Assembly: GCA_023544645.1 (NCBI GenBank) | Contig: JAMJFO010000002.1 | Span: 1-64,000, forward strand | Direction: 5' to 3' | DNA: 64,000 bases | From: Desulfobulbaceae bacterium | GTDB lineage: Bacteria > Desulfobacterota > Desulfobulbia > Desulfobulbales > Desulfobulbaceae | Shown here: piece by piece, positions 24,647 through 31,883 of the stretch | Numbering within the stretch: position 1 is the stretch's first letter | Layout: each line of letters begins with the position of its first letter | Notes under the pieces: model-generated | Told to the model about the DNA's origin: nothing | What the model saw: only the letters and a program-made list of their open reading frames with translations | Databases searched by the model: none | Position numbers and translations under genes: made by a program

Positions 24647-25108
24647 TCAGAAAGTTTTTCTCAGGCAGATAAGTTCCGTGGCCTGCCAGCCAAGTTTTGT
24701 GTAAAATTTCAGGGCCTGGGTGTTGTTGCGGTCTGTTAGAAGCTGGAGCCGTGACGCCCCCTTCATTTTGCCCCATTCCGCCACCTTTTCCATGAGCCGC
24801 CTGCCGATACCCAATCCGCGATATTCTGCATGGATTATCACGTCCTCCACCAGCAGGGCCGGTCCGCCTTCAGCAGTTGATATCGTCTGCTGTCCCGAAC
24901 ACATGCCGATTATTTTACCGTTTGTCTCGGCCACCAGAATGCGCCTCCGCTCGTTATCAATCATCATCTGCAGGCCGCGGCGCTGGAGACCTTCATTGAA
25001 AACGAAATCCTCCTCAATGCTGAAGAGGATCGCAAGCAGAGGTATCAGCGCGTCGATATCTTCAGGAACCGCGGGACGGATGGTGACAGGCGCTTCCATG
25101 GACTTCAT
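24647..25108 (-). CDS. GNAT-family N-acetyltransferase
   Basis: Protein of 153 residues with the GNAT fold: acetyl-CoA pyrophosphate loop in EYRGLGIGRRLMEKV (about residues 96-110) and the C-terminal NNTQALKFYTKLGW motif. The substrate is unknown. It is the last gene of the minus-strand series that starts at nifH; its ATG overlaps the stop of the preceding helical protein gene by 4 bases, so it is translated with the nif-linked genes. Confidence 0.88.
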   Translation of the reverse strand: MKSMEAPVTIRPAVPEDIDALIPLLAILFSIEEDFVFNEGLQRRGLQMMIDNERRRILVAETNGKIIGMCSGQQTISTAEGGPALLVEDVIIHAEYRGLGIGRRLMEKVAEWGKMKGASRLQLLTDRNNTQALKFYTKLGWQATELICLRKTF

Positions 25109-25545
25109 TGTATCAGGTCGTTCTTCACCAGTTCCTGCAGCTTTTCAGCCAACTCCAGCATGGCCTGAATGTCATCCATTGCCGGTTCGATTATTGTGAA
25201 TTCCCAGGGATCACAAATATCCTGATATGTATCGAGGTGAAGCAGCCCTTCCCGAATATCCGCTATGGCGCCGGGAAATGTTTCTTCCATGGCCTCGACC
25301 AGATCAACCATGGTATGGTTGTATGGCATTGTTCCGTGCCGCATCAGGGCGGCCATGACAAATTTTTCCACGGCCATGGCAATGATGTTATAGAGGATGG
25401 GGGCGGTGAAAATCCTTCTGCGGTTGCTGTACGCCCCTTTTGCCGTATGCAGATATCTGTTGCCGGCCTCGAGAAACTCATGCCATCCCTGGATTGGCCG
25501 GATCGAGACCAGAGATGTCAATGGAAGTTCATGTGCGTCGTACAT
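25105..25545 (-). CDS. Helical protein of unknown function, HEPN-like, in the nif operon
   Basis: Protein of 146 residues from ATG 25545, which has GGGAGGG upstream; the frame is open further up but that part overlaps the ferredoxin gene. The sequence is largely helical with WHEFLEAGNRYLHTAKGAYSN and ILYNIIAMAVEKFVMAALMRHG, followed by YNHTMVDLVEAM, a layout like HEPN (four-helix bundle) domains. The RNase-type RxxxxH motif of toxin HEPN proteins is not seen. It lies between the [2Fe-2S] ferredoxin and acetyltransferase genes, so a role in nitrogenase assembly or electron supply is possible but unproven. Confidence 0.65.
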   Translation of the reverse strand: MYDAHELPLTSLVSIRPIQGWHEFLEAGNRYLHTAKGAYSNRRRIFTAPILYNIIAMAVEKFVMAALMRHGTMPYNHTMVDLVEAMEETFPGAIADIREGLLHLDTYQDICDPWEFTIIEPAMDDIQAMLELAEKLQELVKNDLIQ

Positions 25546-25564
25546 GGGCAGACCCTCCCGCAGT

Positions 25565-25867
25565 CTATGAAACGAGGTAGTCGCCTGCCGGTTCGCCGTC
25601 CTCAAGGCCGTCGAGGATGGCATCGATGGCTTCTTCGCTGTCCACTCCCTTGAACCACCAGTTTTCGGGCTGGATAACCATGATCGGGCCGCTGTCGCAC
25701 TGCTTGAGGCAGGTGGTTGCACTGATCAGACAGTCAAGCCCGCGATCCAGGACCTCCTCCTCAATGTACTGGAGAAATCCATCCGTCTGCCTGTGGCAGA
25801 TCCCTTTTTTGTCGCCAGCCACACGAAAGCTCTGGCAGAGTATTATCTGACGTTCCGGTATAGCCAT
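25565..25867 (-). CDS. [2Fe-2S] ferredoxin, thioredoxin-like fold, nif associated
   Basis: Protein of 100 residues with four cysteines in the order CQSFRVAGDKKGIC (residues 11-24) and CLISATTCLKQC (about 46-57). This is the spacing of thioredoxin-like [2Fe-2S] ferredoxins of the Clostridium pasteurianum / Shethna I type, which are often encoded beside nif genes. It may donate electrons during nitrogenase assembly or protect the enzyme by complex formation. It follows the NifB-like gene by 92 bases and precedes the helical protein gene by 19. Confidence 0.87.
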   Translation of the reverse strand: MAIPERQIILCQSFRVAGDKKGICHRQTDGFLQYIEEEVLDRGLDCLISATTCLKQCDSGPIMVIQPENWWFKGVDSEEAIDAILDGLEDGEPAGDYLVS

Positions 25868-25959: not shown

Positions 25960-27099
25960 TTATCTTTTTCGTTTTCCCTTCCTGCCGCCTCCATACAGGG
26001 CGTCCACCGTGCCCTCGACATTGTCCTCCATGAGCAGCAGGGGCAGGCCGTGACGGCCGAGAATCTCCTGCGGCTTGTTACCGGCATGGCCGGCCAGGAG
26101 GGCAAAGCAGTCATCCAGGATCGCGGCCACCTGCTGCCAGCGGTTGTCGCCGGTGCCTGGCTCCGGCAGATCACGTGCTTGGAGCAGGCAGGGCAGGCCG
26201 TCTTCCCTCGGCCCATAGATCAGGGCCTTGATGGCCTGGCCGAGGTGAAGATCGATATCCATGCCGTTGGCGCTGAGCACTGCAACATTGGGCCTGGCTC
26301 CGGTGGGCCTGGGCATGGCGCCCTGGCTGGCCAGGGGGATGACGTCGTCCCGGTCTGCCGCCGTCTCCAGGCTTACAGCCTTGAAATGCCGGCCTGCTTT
26401 CTTCGCCAGGGTTGCCATAACTTCTGCCGGGGACCGGTGGACCTGCTCTTCCCCTTTCAACAATGCTTTTCCGGGCAGCAGGGTAATTGATTCCGCTCCG
26501 AGGCCTGAAGCCCGGCAAGAAATTTCTTCAACTTCATTATCATTGACCCCACCGTAGACCGTAGTCCGGATGGAGACAGATATGCCGGCCGCCCTGCAGG
26601 CAGCGATACCCCTGGCTTGCTCGTCAACCAGGATGTCTGCTGCCCTGGCAAGGGGAGTGTTCCGTTTTCCCGGCCGGATCCAGGTGTACAATTTTCGGAC
26701 CGTTTGCGGATCAACAGCGTCCATGAGCAGAGTGACCCGGGAAACTCCATATTCAGCCATTTGCGCGGCGTGTTCGGCAAGGCCCAGGCCCAGGGTTGTC
26801 AACCCCACGGGCAGATCAGGATATTTTTTCCTCAGCAAGGTCAAAATATCCTCGGTCATGGACCATGTGGCCAGGGGGTCGCCGGGGCCGTTCAGGTCCA
26901 GCCCGGCGACGCTGTTTCCTCGAGCCTCCAGGTCTGCAATCCCGGCAAGTGCCTCATAAAACGGCGCTGCCGGGAGCGGTTTGTCCTCTTTGCAGAAACG
27001 GCTGCGGGCCGCTGCCTGCGGGGCCGCAGCCAGGGTGAGCCACACCGGTGCCCTGCAGTTGCATCCCTTGGGGGTGTCGGGAAAGGGAATGATGGTCAC
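25960..27099 (-). CDS. NifB-like protein lacking two of three radical SAM cysteines, with C-terminal NifX-like domain
   Basis: Protein of 379 residues. The middle (about 60-250) follows NifB closely: GLDLNGPGDPLA, LTTLGLGLAEHAAQMAEYGV, VTLLMDAVDPQTVRKLYTWI, GGVNDNEVEEI. The CxxxCxxC loop that binds the SAM [4Fe-4S] cluster in NifB (context P-x-C-N-I-Q-C-N-x-C) is replaced by PQAAARSRFC at residues 27-36: first Cys to Ala, second to Ser, only the last kept. Residues 270-379 resemble the NifX/NafY iron-molybdenum cofactor-binding domain (NVAVLSANGMDIDLHLGQA). It may bind or carry a cofactor precursor rather than make it. It follows nifK by about 50 bases. A functional NifB must lie elsewhere if the organism fixes nitrogen. 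Confidence 0.82.
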   Translation of the reverse strand: MTIIPFPDTPKGCNCRAPVWLTLAAAPQAAARSRFCKEDKPLPAAPFYEALAGIADLEARGNSVAGLDLNGPGDPLATWSMTEDILTLLRKKYPDLPVGLTTLGLGLAEHAAQMAEYGVSRVTLLMDAVDPQTVRKLYTWIRPGKRNTPLARAADILVDEQARGIAACRAAGISVSIRTTVYGGVNDNEVEEISCRASGLGAESITLLPGKALLKGEEQVHRSPAEVMATLAKKAGRHFKAVSLETAADRDDVIPLASQGAMPRPTGARPNVAVLSANGMDIDLHLGQAIKALIYGPREDGLPCLLQARDLPEPGTGDNRWQQVAAILDDCFALLAGHAGNKPQEILGRHGLPLLLMEDNVEGTVDALYGGGRKGKRKR

Positions 27100-27151: not shown

Positions 27152-28525
27152 TTACAGGACCAGTTCAAATTTTTCTTCCGGATCGTCCCGGTCCTTGCGG
27201 TCGAGCAGGACCCCGAGGATCTTCTCCAGCAGCCTGAGTCCGCCCTTGTAGCCCACGGTGGGGAAATACTGGTGGCCCTGCCGGTCCAGGATGGGAAAGC
27301 CCCAGCGCACGTAAGGCAGATCTTCGTCCCGTGCAATATACTTGCAGTAGGTGTTGCCGATGATCAGATCGACCGGCTTGTTCTTGATCCACTGGTGGAG
27401 CAGGAACATGTCGCCCTTGGCCTTGACGTTGACCTCACAGCCCATGTCCCTGGTAAGCTCCCTGATTCGTTTCTCAAACTTCTTGCCCGGGGTGCCCGTG
27501 ACCACGTGGATGGGGCACATGTCCATGGATACCAGGAATTCGGTCATGGCAATAAGCTGATCCGGATCACCCACCAGGGCCACCTTTTTCCCGTACAGGT
27601 ACTGGTGCATATCCGAGATCATGTCCACCAGTTGGCCGCGTTCGTGCATAATCTCCTCGGGAATATTCACCCCGGCGATGGTCCTGAGCGCATCGATAAA
27701 ACGATCGGTGGCCTTGAGGCCAAAGGGCATATCGAGCACGCTGCAGGGCACCTTGTGTTTGGTGTCAAGCCAGCGGGCCGCATCAGCAGAACACCATTCC
27801 CCCAAGGCAAGGGTGCCCCTGGAGTCACCGGTGCTTTTCAATTCGGCAACGGTTGTCCCTCCTTCCGGGAACATCTTGTACTCGCCGGAGAGCGGCCCGT
27901 TGAGAACGCCGGAAGTGTCCGGAAACAGGATGGTCTTGACCCCGATCAGGCTGGTGAGTCGTTTGAGTTCTTCCATATCAGCAGGTTCCACCCAGCCGGG
28001 GATGATATTGACCTTGCCGTTCTTCCTGCCGGTGGGCTCGGCCATCATGGCCATGGATTTGACCATGCTGGAAAAACCGGTGACATGGGAGCCGGCATAG
28101 CTCGGGGTGGAGGCGCTGATGACGTGTTTGCCCTCGGGTATCTTGCCTTCCCTCTCTGCCTTTTTCTTGATCTGGGGGAGATCGTCGCCGATGGTTTCGG
28201 ACAGACAGGTGGTATGGATGGCGATAACCTCGGGGTTGTACACCGTAAATATGTTATTGATGGCCTGCAGCATATTGGCCTGGCCACCGAAAACCGAGGC
28301 GCCCTCGGTGAACGAGCTGGTGCCGGCGGAAATCGGCTCCTTGTAGTGCCGGGTCAAGGTACTGCGGTGATAGGCGCAGCAGCCCTGGGAGCCATGGCTG
28401 TGCGGCAGGCATCCGTGGATGCCCAGGGATGCGTACATGGCGCCGATGGGCTGGCAGGTCTTGGCCGGGTTGATGGTCAGGGCCTTGCGCTTGGTTATTT
28501 CTGTAGGGGTATGTCGTAATAACAT
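27152..28525 (-). CDS. nifK: Nitrogenase molybdenum-iron protein beta chain
   Basis: Protein of 457 residues, the shorter NifK type of anaerobes (Azotobacter NifK is about 520 residues). P-cluster cysteines are visible in TCQPIGAMYASLG, HGSQGCCAYHRS and TTCLSETIGDDL (about residues 23-115). Pairs with NifD in the alpha2-beta2 dinitrogenase. The gene follows nifD on the minus strand with 96 bases between, and precedes the NifB-like gene. Confidence 0.95.
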   Translation of the reverse strand: MLLRHTPTEITKRKALTINPAKTCQPIGAMYASLGIHGCLPHSHGSQGCCAYHRSTLTRHYKEPISAGTSSFTEGASVFGGQANMLQAINNIFTVYNPEVIAIHTTCLSETIGDDLPQIKKKAEREGKIPEGKHVISASTPSYAGSHVTGFSSMVKSMAMMAEPTGRKNGKVNIIPGWVEPADMEELKRLTSLIGVKTILFPDTSGVLNGPLSGEYKMFPEGGTTVAELKSTGDSRGTLALGEWCSADAARWLDTKHKVPCSVLDMPFGLKATDRFIDALRTIAGVNIPEEIMHERGQLVDMISDMHQYLYGKKVALVGDPDQLIAMTEFLVSMDMCPIHVVTGTPGKKFEKRIRELTRDMGCEVNVKAKGDMFLLHQWIKNKPVDLIIGNTYCKYIARDEDLPYVRWGFPILDRQGHQYFPTVGYKGGLRLLEKILGVLLDRKDRDDPEEKFELVL

Positions 28526-28621: not shown

Positions 28622-30262
28622 TCATTCCCAGTTATAGGAAGCCGACAGCTGCGGGTTCTCCTGCCAGGGGGCCTTCATGTAGCCCCAGACCCTGGAGTTC
28701 ACCAGCCGGTCGATTTCCCGGTAAAAGTTGATCGCGCCCTGGAAGCCTGCATAGGGGCCGCCGGAGTCGTAGCTGTGCAGCTGCTTCATCGGCACGCCCA
28801 GCTTCTGGATGGAGTATTTTTCCTTGATGCCGGCGCAGAAGATGTCCGGCTTCATCAGTTCCACCAGTTTCTCCGCCTCGTACTGGTTAAGGTCGTCGAT
28901 AATCAGGGTGCCTTTGTCCATGTCCGGGGCCAGGCCATCGTACTCCTTGAACCTGTATCCGGCCTTTTCCAGGGCTTTCATTTCCTTGTCGCTCTTGCGC
29001 GGCTTGAAACGGGTTTCGTCCGGTTCAACCTCGATCTCTTCGATATTGCGGCTGTCGGCATCAAGCTTGATATTCGGCAGCACCTGGCGGCCCTCGTAAT
29101 CATCCTGATGGGCGAACTCATAGCCGGCCGAGATGGTCTTCATTCCCAGTTCGGCAAAAAGGTCCTGGTAGTGATGGGCCCGGGAGCCGCCGACAAACAT
29201 CATGGCGGTCTTGCCTTCGGTCCGGGGGGTGATAACGGCCAGGGCCGCTTCCACCTCGGGCATTTCCTCGGTAATGACTTCTTCCACCTGGTCGATCAGC
29301 TCCTGCTCGCCGAAATACTCGGCGATCTTGCGCAGGCTTCTGGCCGTGGATCTTGCGCCGATGAAATTCACCTTGATCCAGGGAATCCCGTATCTGGTCT
29401 CCATCATGTCCGCCACATAGTTGATGGACCGGTGGCACATGACCGCGTTGAGATCAGCCGTGTGGGCTGAGGCAAACTGGTCATAGGTGGAGTTGCCGGA
29501 AAAGGTCGAGATGCAGGTAATCCCGCATTTTTTGAAGATCCGGTCAATTTCGAAACCATCTCCACCGATGTTGTATTCGCCCAGAAGGTTGATCTTGTAT
29601 TTCCCTGGCTTCTCCGTGTCATTTTCGCCGACGATATGCCGAAAAACCTGGTTGTTGGCAATATGATGGCCTGCGGACTGGCTGACGCCTTTGTAGCCCT
29701 CGCAGCTGAAGGCATACACATTGCAGTCGCCCAGCTTTTCCTTCATGTTGGCGGTGACGGTGTGGATATCATCCCCGATCAGGCCTACCGGACAGGTGGC
29801 AAACACCGCTATTGATTTGGGATGATAGAGATCATATGCTTCCTGGATCGCCGCGGCCAGTTTCTTCTCGCCGCCGAAGATGATGTCCTGCTCCTGCATG
29901 TCCGTGGAAAAGCAGTAGGGCATATAATTTTCGCCATCCGGCCCGGCTTCGGTCTGGTTGCGCCTGGTCAGCCAGGAATAAAATCCGCAGCCGATGGGGC
30001 CGTGGGTTATGTTGACGATGTCCCGGGTGGGTCCCATGATAACACCCTTGCAGCCGGCGTATGTGCAGCCGCGCATGGTGATGATGCCCGGTATGGTGCG
30101 CACGTTGGCCGTAAGCGACGGGGTCTCCTTCTGCAGGGCCTCGTTGATCATTATCTGTTTGGCCCGTTTGCGGGCGACCTTGGGGGGATATTTCTCAAGG
30201 AGTTCCGTCTTGATATCGGCAGGCTCCCACTGCACCAGCTTTTTTTTCGTTGTTGTTGCCAT
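28622..30262 (-). CDS. nifD: Nitrogenase molybdenum-iron protein alpha chain
   Basis: Protein of 546 residues. P-cluster ligands lie in RGCTYAGCKG, HGPIGCGFYSW and SCEGYKGVSQSAGHH. FeMo-cofactor ligands are the Cys in KKCGITCISTFSGNSTYD and the His in MKQLHSYDSGGPYAGFQGA. The protein carries an extra stretch (about residues 385-435, acidic, EEIEVEPDETRFKPRKSDKE) like the insertion of Clostridium-type NifD, which marks a Group II/III anaerobe enzyme. Catalyses N2 reduction with NifK, receiving electrons from NifH. Confidence 0.96.
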   Translation of the reverse strand: MATTTKKKLVQWEPADIKTELLEKYPPKVARKRAKQIMINEALQKETPSLTANVRTIPGIITMRGCTYAGCKGVIMGPTRDIVNITHGPIGCGFYSWLTRRNQTEAGPDGENYMPYCFSTDMQEQDIIFGGEKKLAAAIQEAYDLYHPKSIAVFATCPVGLIGDDIHTVTANMKEKLGDCNVYAFSCEGYKGVSQSAGHHIANNQVFRHIVGENDTEKPGKYKINLLGEYNIGGDGFEIDRIFKKCGITCISTFSGNSTYDQFASAHTADLNAVMCHRSINYVADMMETRYGIPWIKVNFIGARSTARSLRKIAEYFGEQELIDQVEEVITEEMPEVEAALAVITPRTEGKTAMMFVGGSRAHHYQDLFAELGMKTISAGYEFAHQDDYEGRQVLPNIKLDADSRNIEEIEVEPDETRFKPRKSDKEMKALEKAGYRFKEYDGLAPDMDKGTLIIDDLNQYEAEKLVELMKPDIFCAGIKEKYSIQKLGVPMKQLHSYDSGGPYAGFQGAINFYREIDRLVNSRVWGYMKAPWQENPQLSASYNWE

Positions 30263-30280: not shown

Positions 30281-30655
30281 TCAGGCGATGGACCTGGCGC
30301 CGGTTTCACCAGTCCGCACCCGGACGGCATCGCTCAGGGGGACCACGAATACCTTGCCGTCGCCCGGTCTGCCGGTCTGGTTGGTGTTGATAATCGTTTC
30401 AACAACACAGGCAACCTGATCGTCTTCGACAACAGCTGTTACCAGCCGCTTGGGATACAGTTTGCCCTTTTCGCCGAGCAGCGCCGCTGCTTCGATATAT
30501 CCCTGCTCGGCCCCTTCCAGCACCTCGGGATTGGCAAAACCCTTGCCCCGGCCTTGCGCCTCGTGGGCAAAGAATGCGTCAATGCCGCAGTCGGTCAATG
30601 CCTGCTTGGTCTGGTTCATCATGTTTATGCGCACTACGGCGATAACCTCTTTCAT
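30281..30655 (-). CDS. nifI2: Nitrogenase-associated PII-family regulator NifI2
   Basis: PII-like protein of 124 residues. Typical PII core: KEVIAVVRINMMNQTKQAL at the start, T-loop region from about 38 to 65, then VVEDDQVACVVETIINTNQTGRPGDGKVFVVPL. In methanogens and clostridia NifI1 and NifI2 form a complex that binds dinitrogenase and turns it off after ammonium; ATP and 2-oxoglutarate relieve it. That role is assumed here from family and position between nifH and nifD. ATG overlaps the nifI1 stop by 4 bases. Confidence 0.92.
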   Translation of the reverse strand: MKEVIAVVRINMMNQTKQALTDCGIDAFFAHEAQGRGKGFANPEVLEGAEQGYIEAAALLGEKGKLYPKRLVTAVVEDDQVACVVETIINTNQTGRPGDGKVFVVPLSDAVRVRTGETGARSIA

Positions 30656-31008
30656 GCCGGGACCTCCTCGGTGGCAGCTACGGCATCCAATGCGCCGGTG
30701 CTGATGGTGTAGGATTCCTCCACTTGGCTGACAAATATCTTGCCGTCGCCGAATGCTCCCTTTTCACCGCTCTTGGCTGTTTTGAGGATGGTATCAATGA
30801 CAAACTGCTTGTCTTCGTCGTTGACCACGCTCATCAGCATGACTTTTGGTATTTCATCATAGGTGATATCGCCGATCTTGATGCCGCGTTGTTTTCCGCG
30901 GCCGGCTACCGAATATTTTGTCACTGCGGGAAAACCAGCGTCCATGAGGGCGGCGAGTACCGCATCTGCTTTTTCCGGCCGGATTATCGATCTGATCATT
31001 ATCATCAT
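30652..31008 (-). CDS. nifI1: Nitrogenase-associated PII-family regulator NifI1
   Basis: PII-like protein of 118 residues with MIRSIIRPEKADAVLAALMDAGFPAVTKYSVAGRGKQRG at its N-terminus (shown in part here: residues 4-42) and DGKIFVSQVEESYTI near the end. Lies directly after nifH, the invariant position of nifI1. Partner of NifI2 in switching off nitrogenase. An alternative start three codons later (second ATG) is possible. Confidence 0.92.
   Translation of the reverse strand: MMIMIRSIIRPEKADAVLAALMDAGFPAVTKYSVAGRGKQRGIKIGDITYDEIPKVMLMSVVNDEDKQFVIDTILKTAKSGEKGAFGDGKIFVSQVEESYTISTGALDAVAATEEVPA

Positions 31009-31049: not shown

Positions 31050-31883
<834 letters not shown>

Follow-up and report, generated by a model that had tools for sequence, protein, structure and literature searches.

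A NifB pseudoenzyme encoded directly after nifK in Desulfobulbales-type genomes: a candidate escort for the nitrogenase cofactor

A NifB homologue downstream of nifK

How the nitrogenase cofactor is handed over between proteins is an open question, relevant to the engineering of nitrogen fixation, and the locus described here raises it in a particular form: what might a NifB homologue without the radical SAM cysteines do directly after nifK? The window (the whole stretch analysed, 64,000 nucleotides of a Desulfobulbaceae contig) carries the gene on the minus strand at 25960..27099, stop codon included. Its product of 379 residues, here called pNifB, combines a NifB pseudoenzyme with a NifX/NafY-like domain, and its reading frame opens with a GTG codon 52 bp downstream of nifK.

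The surrounding operon, all on the minus strand, consists of nifH (31050..31880, TIGR01287 above cut-off), a nifI1-type and a nifI2-type PII protein gene (30652..31008 and 30281..30655, both assigned by PII family and operon position), nifD (28622..30262, TIGR01282 above cut-off), nifK (27152..28525, TIGR01286 above cut-off), the pNifB gene, and a gene for a small 2Fe-2S thioredoxin-like ferredoxin (25565..25867, a weak PF01257 match), with nifA- and nifV-like genes close by. The placement directly after nifK, pointed out in the first-pass annotation, was found at all 45 loci examined, 36 of which showed the full nifH-I1-D-K order on the contig. Of the genes searched for, the 2Fe-2S ferredoxin gene was the one that came next at 42 of the 42 loci with enough sequence. 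Beyond it in the window, at 25105-25653 on the minus strand, lies a gene whose protein type (about 150–180 residues) had no Pfam match at E ≤ 1; relatives were present in most nif clusters examined in the order and in a single genome from a different family. A GNAT acetyltransferase gene (24647-25108, minus strand) likewise recurs in most nif clusters examined, often adjoining a gene of the 25105-25653 type.

That a canonical nifB and nifEN should be looked for elsewhere in the genome had been proposed at the outset, and both were found on another contig, which encodes NifE, NifN, canonical NifB and a small NifX-like protein. The pNifB gene is thus no substitute for nifENB, and the canonical NifB rules out that the organism has lost NifB function. 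The genome holds only four NifD/K/E/N-type genes and so has a single nitrogenase, which the equivalog scores of NifD and NifK assign to the Mo type; a role with a V or Fe-only nitrogenase finds no support.

The Nitratidesulfovibrio vulgaris plasmids carry the order nifH-I-I-D-K-ferredoxin-E-N-radical SAM without pNifB, and their copy of the ferredoxin gene, annotated as a (2Fe-2S) ferredoxin domain protein, directly follows nifK. Since this is the same operon minus one gene, pNifB was either inserted at this position or lost from it. A plasmid search gave no match at the pNifB level; the best identity was 31%, and the top Nitratidesulfovibrio matches were located after nifN. On the plasmid of strain DP4 (L126, 10652-11935), the radical SAM (nifB) gene is immediately followed by one annotated as an antiviral reverse transcriptase (drt2).

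Loss of the NifB motifs in one clade

Aligned with the canonical NifB of the same genome, the pNifB segment APQAAARSRFC (residues 26-36; 26992..27024, minus strand) falls on APKCNIKCNYC, so that the usual APxCxxxCxxC is replaced by a dead radical SAM loop reading AxxxSxxC in the window. The first cysteine is changed to alanine and the second to serine while the third is retained, as first described from the DNA alone. An in-frame CxxxCxxC, upstream or by way of another start, was looked for and none was present: the frame 5' of the GTG is open for four codons only (383 residues at most), so no alternative start bears the motif and a hidden upstream copy is ruled out. The retained third cysteine, Cys36 (26992-26994), persists in the window's subclade and is gone in most relatives. 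Another cysteine, Cys13 (27061-27063), belongs to the N-terminal region and is common to about 64% of the family.

Motifs were then counted in 77 pNifB and 21 canonical NifB sequences. The canonical set had been chosen by the presence of HPC and CxxxCxxC, so its scores for these two motifs hold by construction; with that proviso, CxxxCxxC occurred in none of the 77 pNifB and in 21/21 canonical NifB. Cx2CRxDAxG was found in 0/77 pNifB vs 20/21 canonical sequences, and within the pNifB family HPC occurred once, ExRP in 20, AGPG in 10 and TxTxN in 2 of the 77; the window protein lacks all five. A segment of about 14 residues bearing the KYDC cysteine is deleted in pNifB, the sites of the conserved histidine in GRVH and the cysteine in LCLASNG have changed, and neither of the conserved NifB residues Lys189 and Asn191 is retained. 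The ligands of the SAM, K1 and K2 clusters have been assigned experimentally in Methanosarcina acetivorans NifB (PMC6053413, PMC7145814); we carried them over to pNifB by motif rather than by direct alignment with that protein. With these ligands lost, pNifB should be incapable of synthesizing NifB-co, and the SAM-cluster loss predicted in the first-pass annotation fits all the findings.

The sole NifB barrel motif kept in the window protein is GPGDPLA (residues 71-77; 26869..26889, minus strand), and GPG[DE] was present in 75/77 pNifB. Because GPGDPLA is the barrel's GGE-like motif, it could be taken as a sign that pNifB still performs some reaction, SAM-dependent or not, in the absence of the usual cluster. 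We regard this as very improbable, as the cluster cysteines are gone (the third persisting in the window's subclade), TxTxN is down to 2/77, Lys189 and Asn191 are missing, and GPGDPLA may be merely structural.

The barrel fold nevertheless appears to be that of NifB. An AlphaFold model of the apo protein, built from a 33-sequence alignment, reached a pLDDT of 77 and a pTM of 0.61, and its barrel was closest to apo-NifB 7JMA (TM 0.91 by target length). The first domain scored 106.8 bits against the NCBIfam nifB equivalog TIGR01290, far below its cut-off of 343.65. The description of a well-kept NifB-like core was therefore too strong, with HPC, ExRP, AGPG, TxTxN and Cx2CRxDAxG missing and the KYDC segment deleted; judged by its catalytic motifs, pNifB falls outside NifB, although it is a NifB homologue. 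It follows for annotation that a NifB-like match in this family is no proof of NifB activity. A published survey discarded 28% of putative NifB sequences (PMC5715403), and surveys that, like that one, retain only NifB with all motifs would miss the pNifB family. No published description of a NifB paralogue without the cysteines was found in the open-licence literature.

A NifB-family match at E ≤ 1e-20 was present in 159 of the 258 genomes of the order (Desulfobulbales-type), and in about 142 of the 258, counted from the listing, the best match was at the pNifB level (E < 1e-49). Outside the order, pNifB was found in 9 of the 55 matching genomes of the phylum sample, once in two pieces. Many of the bacteria with pNifB are sulfur-cycling. 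Named hosts were Desulfopila aestuarii, Desulfopila sp. IMCC35008 and Desulfogranum japonicum, in a scan that used the window's own peptides as queries and so reaches close relatives only. A tree of 43 pNifB and 30 NifB sequences, from a quick search with no bootstrap, set all pNifB apart by one branch that had full SH-aLRT support; the branch dividing the two groups is long. The expectation that the substitution would be conserved in a clade was borne out for the absence of the cysteines, which is family-wide; the exact Ala/Ser exchange is limited to the window's subclade. Pairwise dN/dS values were 0.11–0.29 among the 25 closest pairs listed, and purifying selection on pNifB is clear.

The missing catalytic residues might also be put down to a decaying gene or a sequencing artefact. 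This explanation, to which we give practically no credence, is refuted by intact frames in well over 100 genomes, by the purifying selection and by the constant location; an isolated error is ruled out by a cysteine loss shared across one strongly supported clade.

The C-terminal domain and the role of pNifB

The NifX/NafY-like domain (about residues 269-371; 25987..26295, minus strand) is nearly invariant in the pNifB family, with the motif NGMDIDLHLGQA and near-frozen positions at S-x-N-G-M-D-I-D-L-H-L-G, R309, R320-W321, D330-C331, G340 and P343. The pattern D-x-H-[FL]-G is present as DLHLG, and its histidine, His285 (codon 26245..26247, minus strand), is invariant in the 33-sequence alignment and in 100% of the 77 sequences. 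The FeMo-co-binding family PF02579 matched the C-terminus weakly, scoring 17.6 bits (E 0.0047) where its cut-off is 26.3. The domain profile of the pNifB family itself found core-NafY 1P90 (E 5e-5), its best hit in the PDB, which outscored NifX 9IAN (E 0.04). By its histidine pattern and this profile match, though short of the Pfam cut-off, the fused domain of NifX/NafY type recognized in the first-pass annotation is real. His285 aligned to His35 of NifX 9IAN and to the equivalent histidine of core-NafY, and Cys331 fell on NifX Cys82 by counting along the alignment. In the NifENX structure His35 of NifX is a ligand of NifB-co (PMC13128457), while Cys82 is dispensable for NifB-co binding (PMC11938142). 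Most pNifB end after a GGG in a short basic tail (GGGRKGKRKR in the window, about 25963-25986, minus strand) that canonical NifB does not have.

As far as sequence allows us to say, pNifB descends from an early branch of the two-domain NifB-NifX proteins, one in which the Fe-S cluster ligands of NifB were lost. Our preferred reading, which we hold to be somewhat probable, is that it acts as a cofactor escort and MoFe assembly factor. In this scheme NifB-co or FeMo-co would be bound in the NifX/NafY-like domain via His285, apo-NifDK or, with lower probability, NifEN or NifB would be the docking site of the emptied barrel, and cofactor insertion would release pNifB. With no ligands for making NifB-co, an invariant cofactor histidine and a gene fixed beside nifK, an escort or apo-NifDK assembly factor is the best explanation, and the carrier-type role proposed earlier would fit all the findings. 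The purifying selection, the higher profile score of core-NafY over NifX, the presence of canonical NifB, NifE and NifN in the genome and the two-domain precedents NafY and AnfO also speak for it. The position beside nifK is suggestive of a partnership, though short of proof. The NifX-like domain of canonical NifB has the same histidine, so that His285 conservation alone cannot tell an escort from another role. The small NifX-like proteins of the same genome could do the cofactor carrying, which counts against the escort reading.

The pNifB protein could instead be a non-catalytic partner of canonical NifB, pairing with it or taking its product on the spot and so governing NifB-co flux or release. 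Its barrel has the fold of its paralogue NifB, a further NifB-family match (at least one) was found in 135 of the about 142 pNifB genomes, and Klebsiella NifB without its NifX-like domain has a changed activity, for which a flux-regulating role was suggested (PMC5715403). The gene is fixed beside nifK and not nifB, however, and nifB frequently lies at a distance of many genes or on a separate contig, which makes this partnership unlikely.

The barrel raises a further alternative, since Arg32 (87%) and Arg34 (88%), both in the dead loop, and Arg142 (100%) are conserved in pNifB despite the loss of the cysteines. These residues might replace the cluster ligands, with the emptied active site serving as a cage for the 8Fe cofactor or its precursor; NifB-co, an anion, is bound by NifE and NifX at positively charged sites (PMC13128457). 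The barrel has no conserved thiol ligand, though, an apo model cannot reveal a ligand, and the basic residues are equally explicable as a protein-docking surface. We consider such a cage distinctly unlikely.

The two PII-type regulators in the operon, and the thought that a cofactor-binding domain could act as a sensor, would accommodate a regulator that senses the cofactor level and acts on nif expression or activity. This seems quite improbable, as the domain profile search found no DNA-binding or signalling domain in pNifB and the gene sits in a structural-gene operon, a common place for assembly factors.

With its gene fixed between nifK and that of a ferredoxin, this conserved, dead NifB paralogue is a directly testable candidate for a cofactor escort in these anaerobic diazotrophs. 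A bolder version, tentative and rather doubtful at present, would make this dead radical SAM enzyme a new type of assembly factor across a clade of anaerobic diazotrophs, its emptied barrel docking, or caging the 8Fe cofactor, during transfer to NifDK.

Comparison with known cofactor-binding proteins

Two-domain NifB, with its radical SAM and NifX-like parts, is homologous to pNifB in both domains, and the genome's own NifB shares 36% identity with it over residues 63-371. Unlike NifB, pNifB has neither CxxxCxxC nor the other cluster motifs, forms a separate clade, and is encoded after nifK rather than after nifN.

NifX, a carrier of NifB-co, shares the domain fold with pNifB, as well as the His35 and Cys82 positions. 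It is, however, small, has one domain only and attaches to NifE through its C-terminal helix (PMC13128457), whereas pNifB has a barrel of 260 residues in front of this domain.

NafY and NifY, escorts of the apo-MoFe protein, resemble pNifB in their two-domain layout; their cofactor-binding domain is related to that of pNifB and likewise has the ligand histidine. In Klebsiella, the NifY gene comes after nifK-nifT. The N-domain of NafY binds apo-NifDK and its core binds FeMo-co (PMC8496260), and NafY/NifY act in the interval between P-cluster maturation and the insertion of FeMo-co (PMC6016461). The NafY N-domain is all-helical (PMC8496260), in contrast to the NifB-type barrel that forms the N-terminal part of pNifB, and by this domain pNifB falls outside NafY. 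The NafY N-domain family PF16844 had no match in the genome, but it had none in the control genomes either, which makes that result uninformative.

AnfO combines an N-domain that binds apo-nitrogenase with a NifX-like cofactor-binding domain (PMC11938142), the same two-domain logic as pNifB, a likeness drawn from the published description of AnfO. AnfO serves the Fe-only enzyme, while the genome with pNifB has only the four Mo-type NifD/K/E/N genes. On the best reading of these comparisons, pNifB would work like NafY or AnfO, with a dead radical SAM barrel as its targeting domain.
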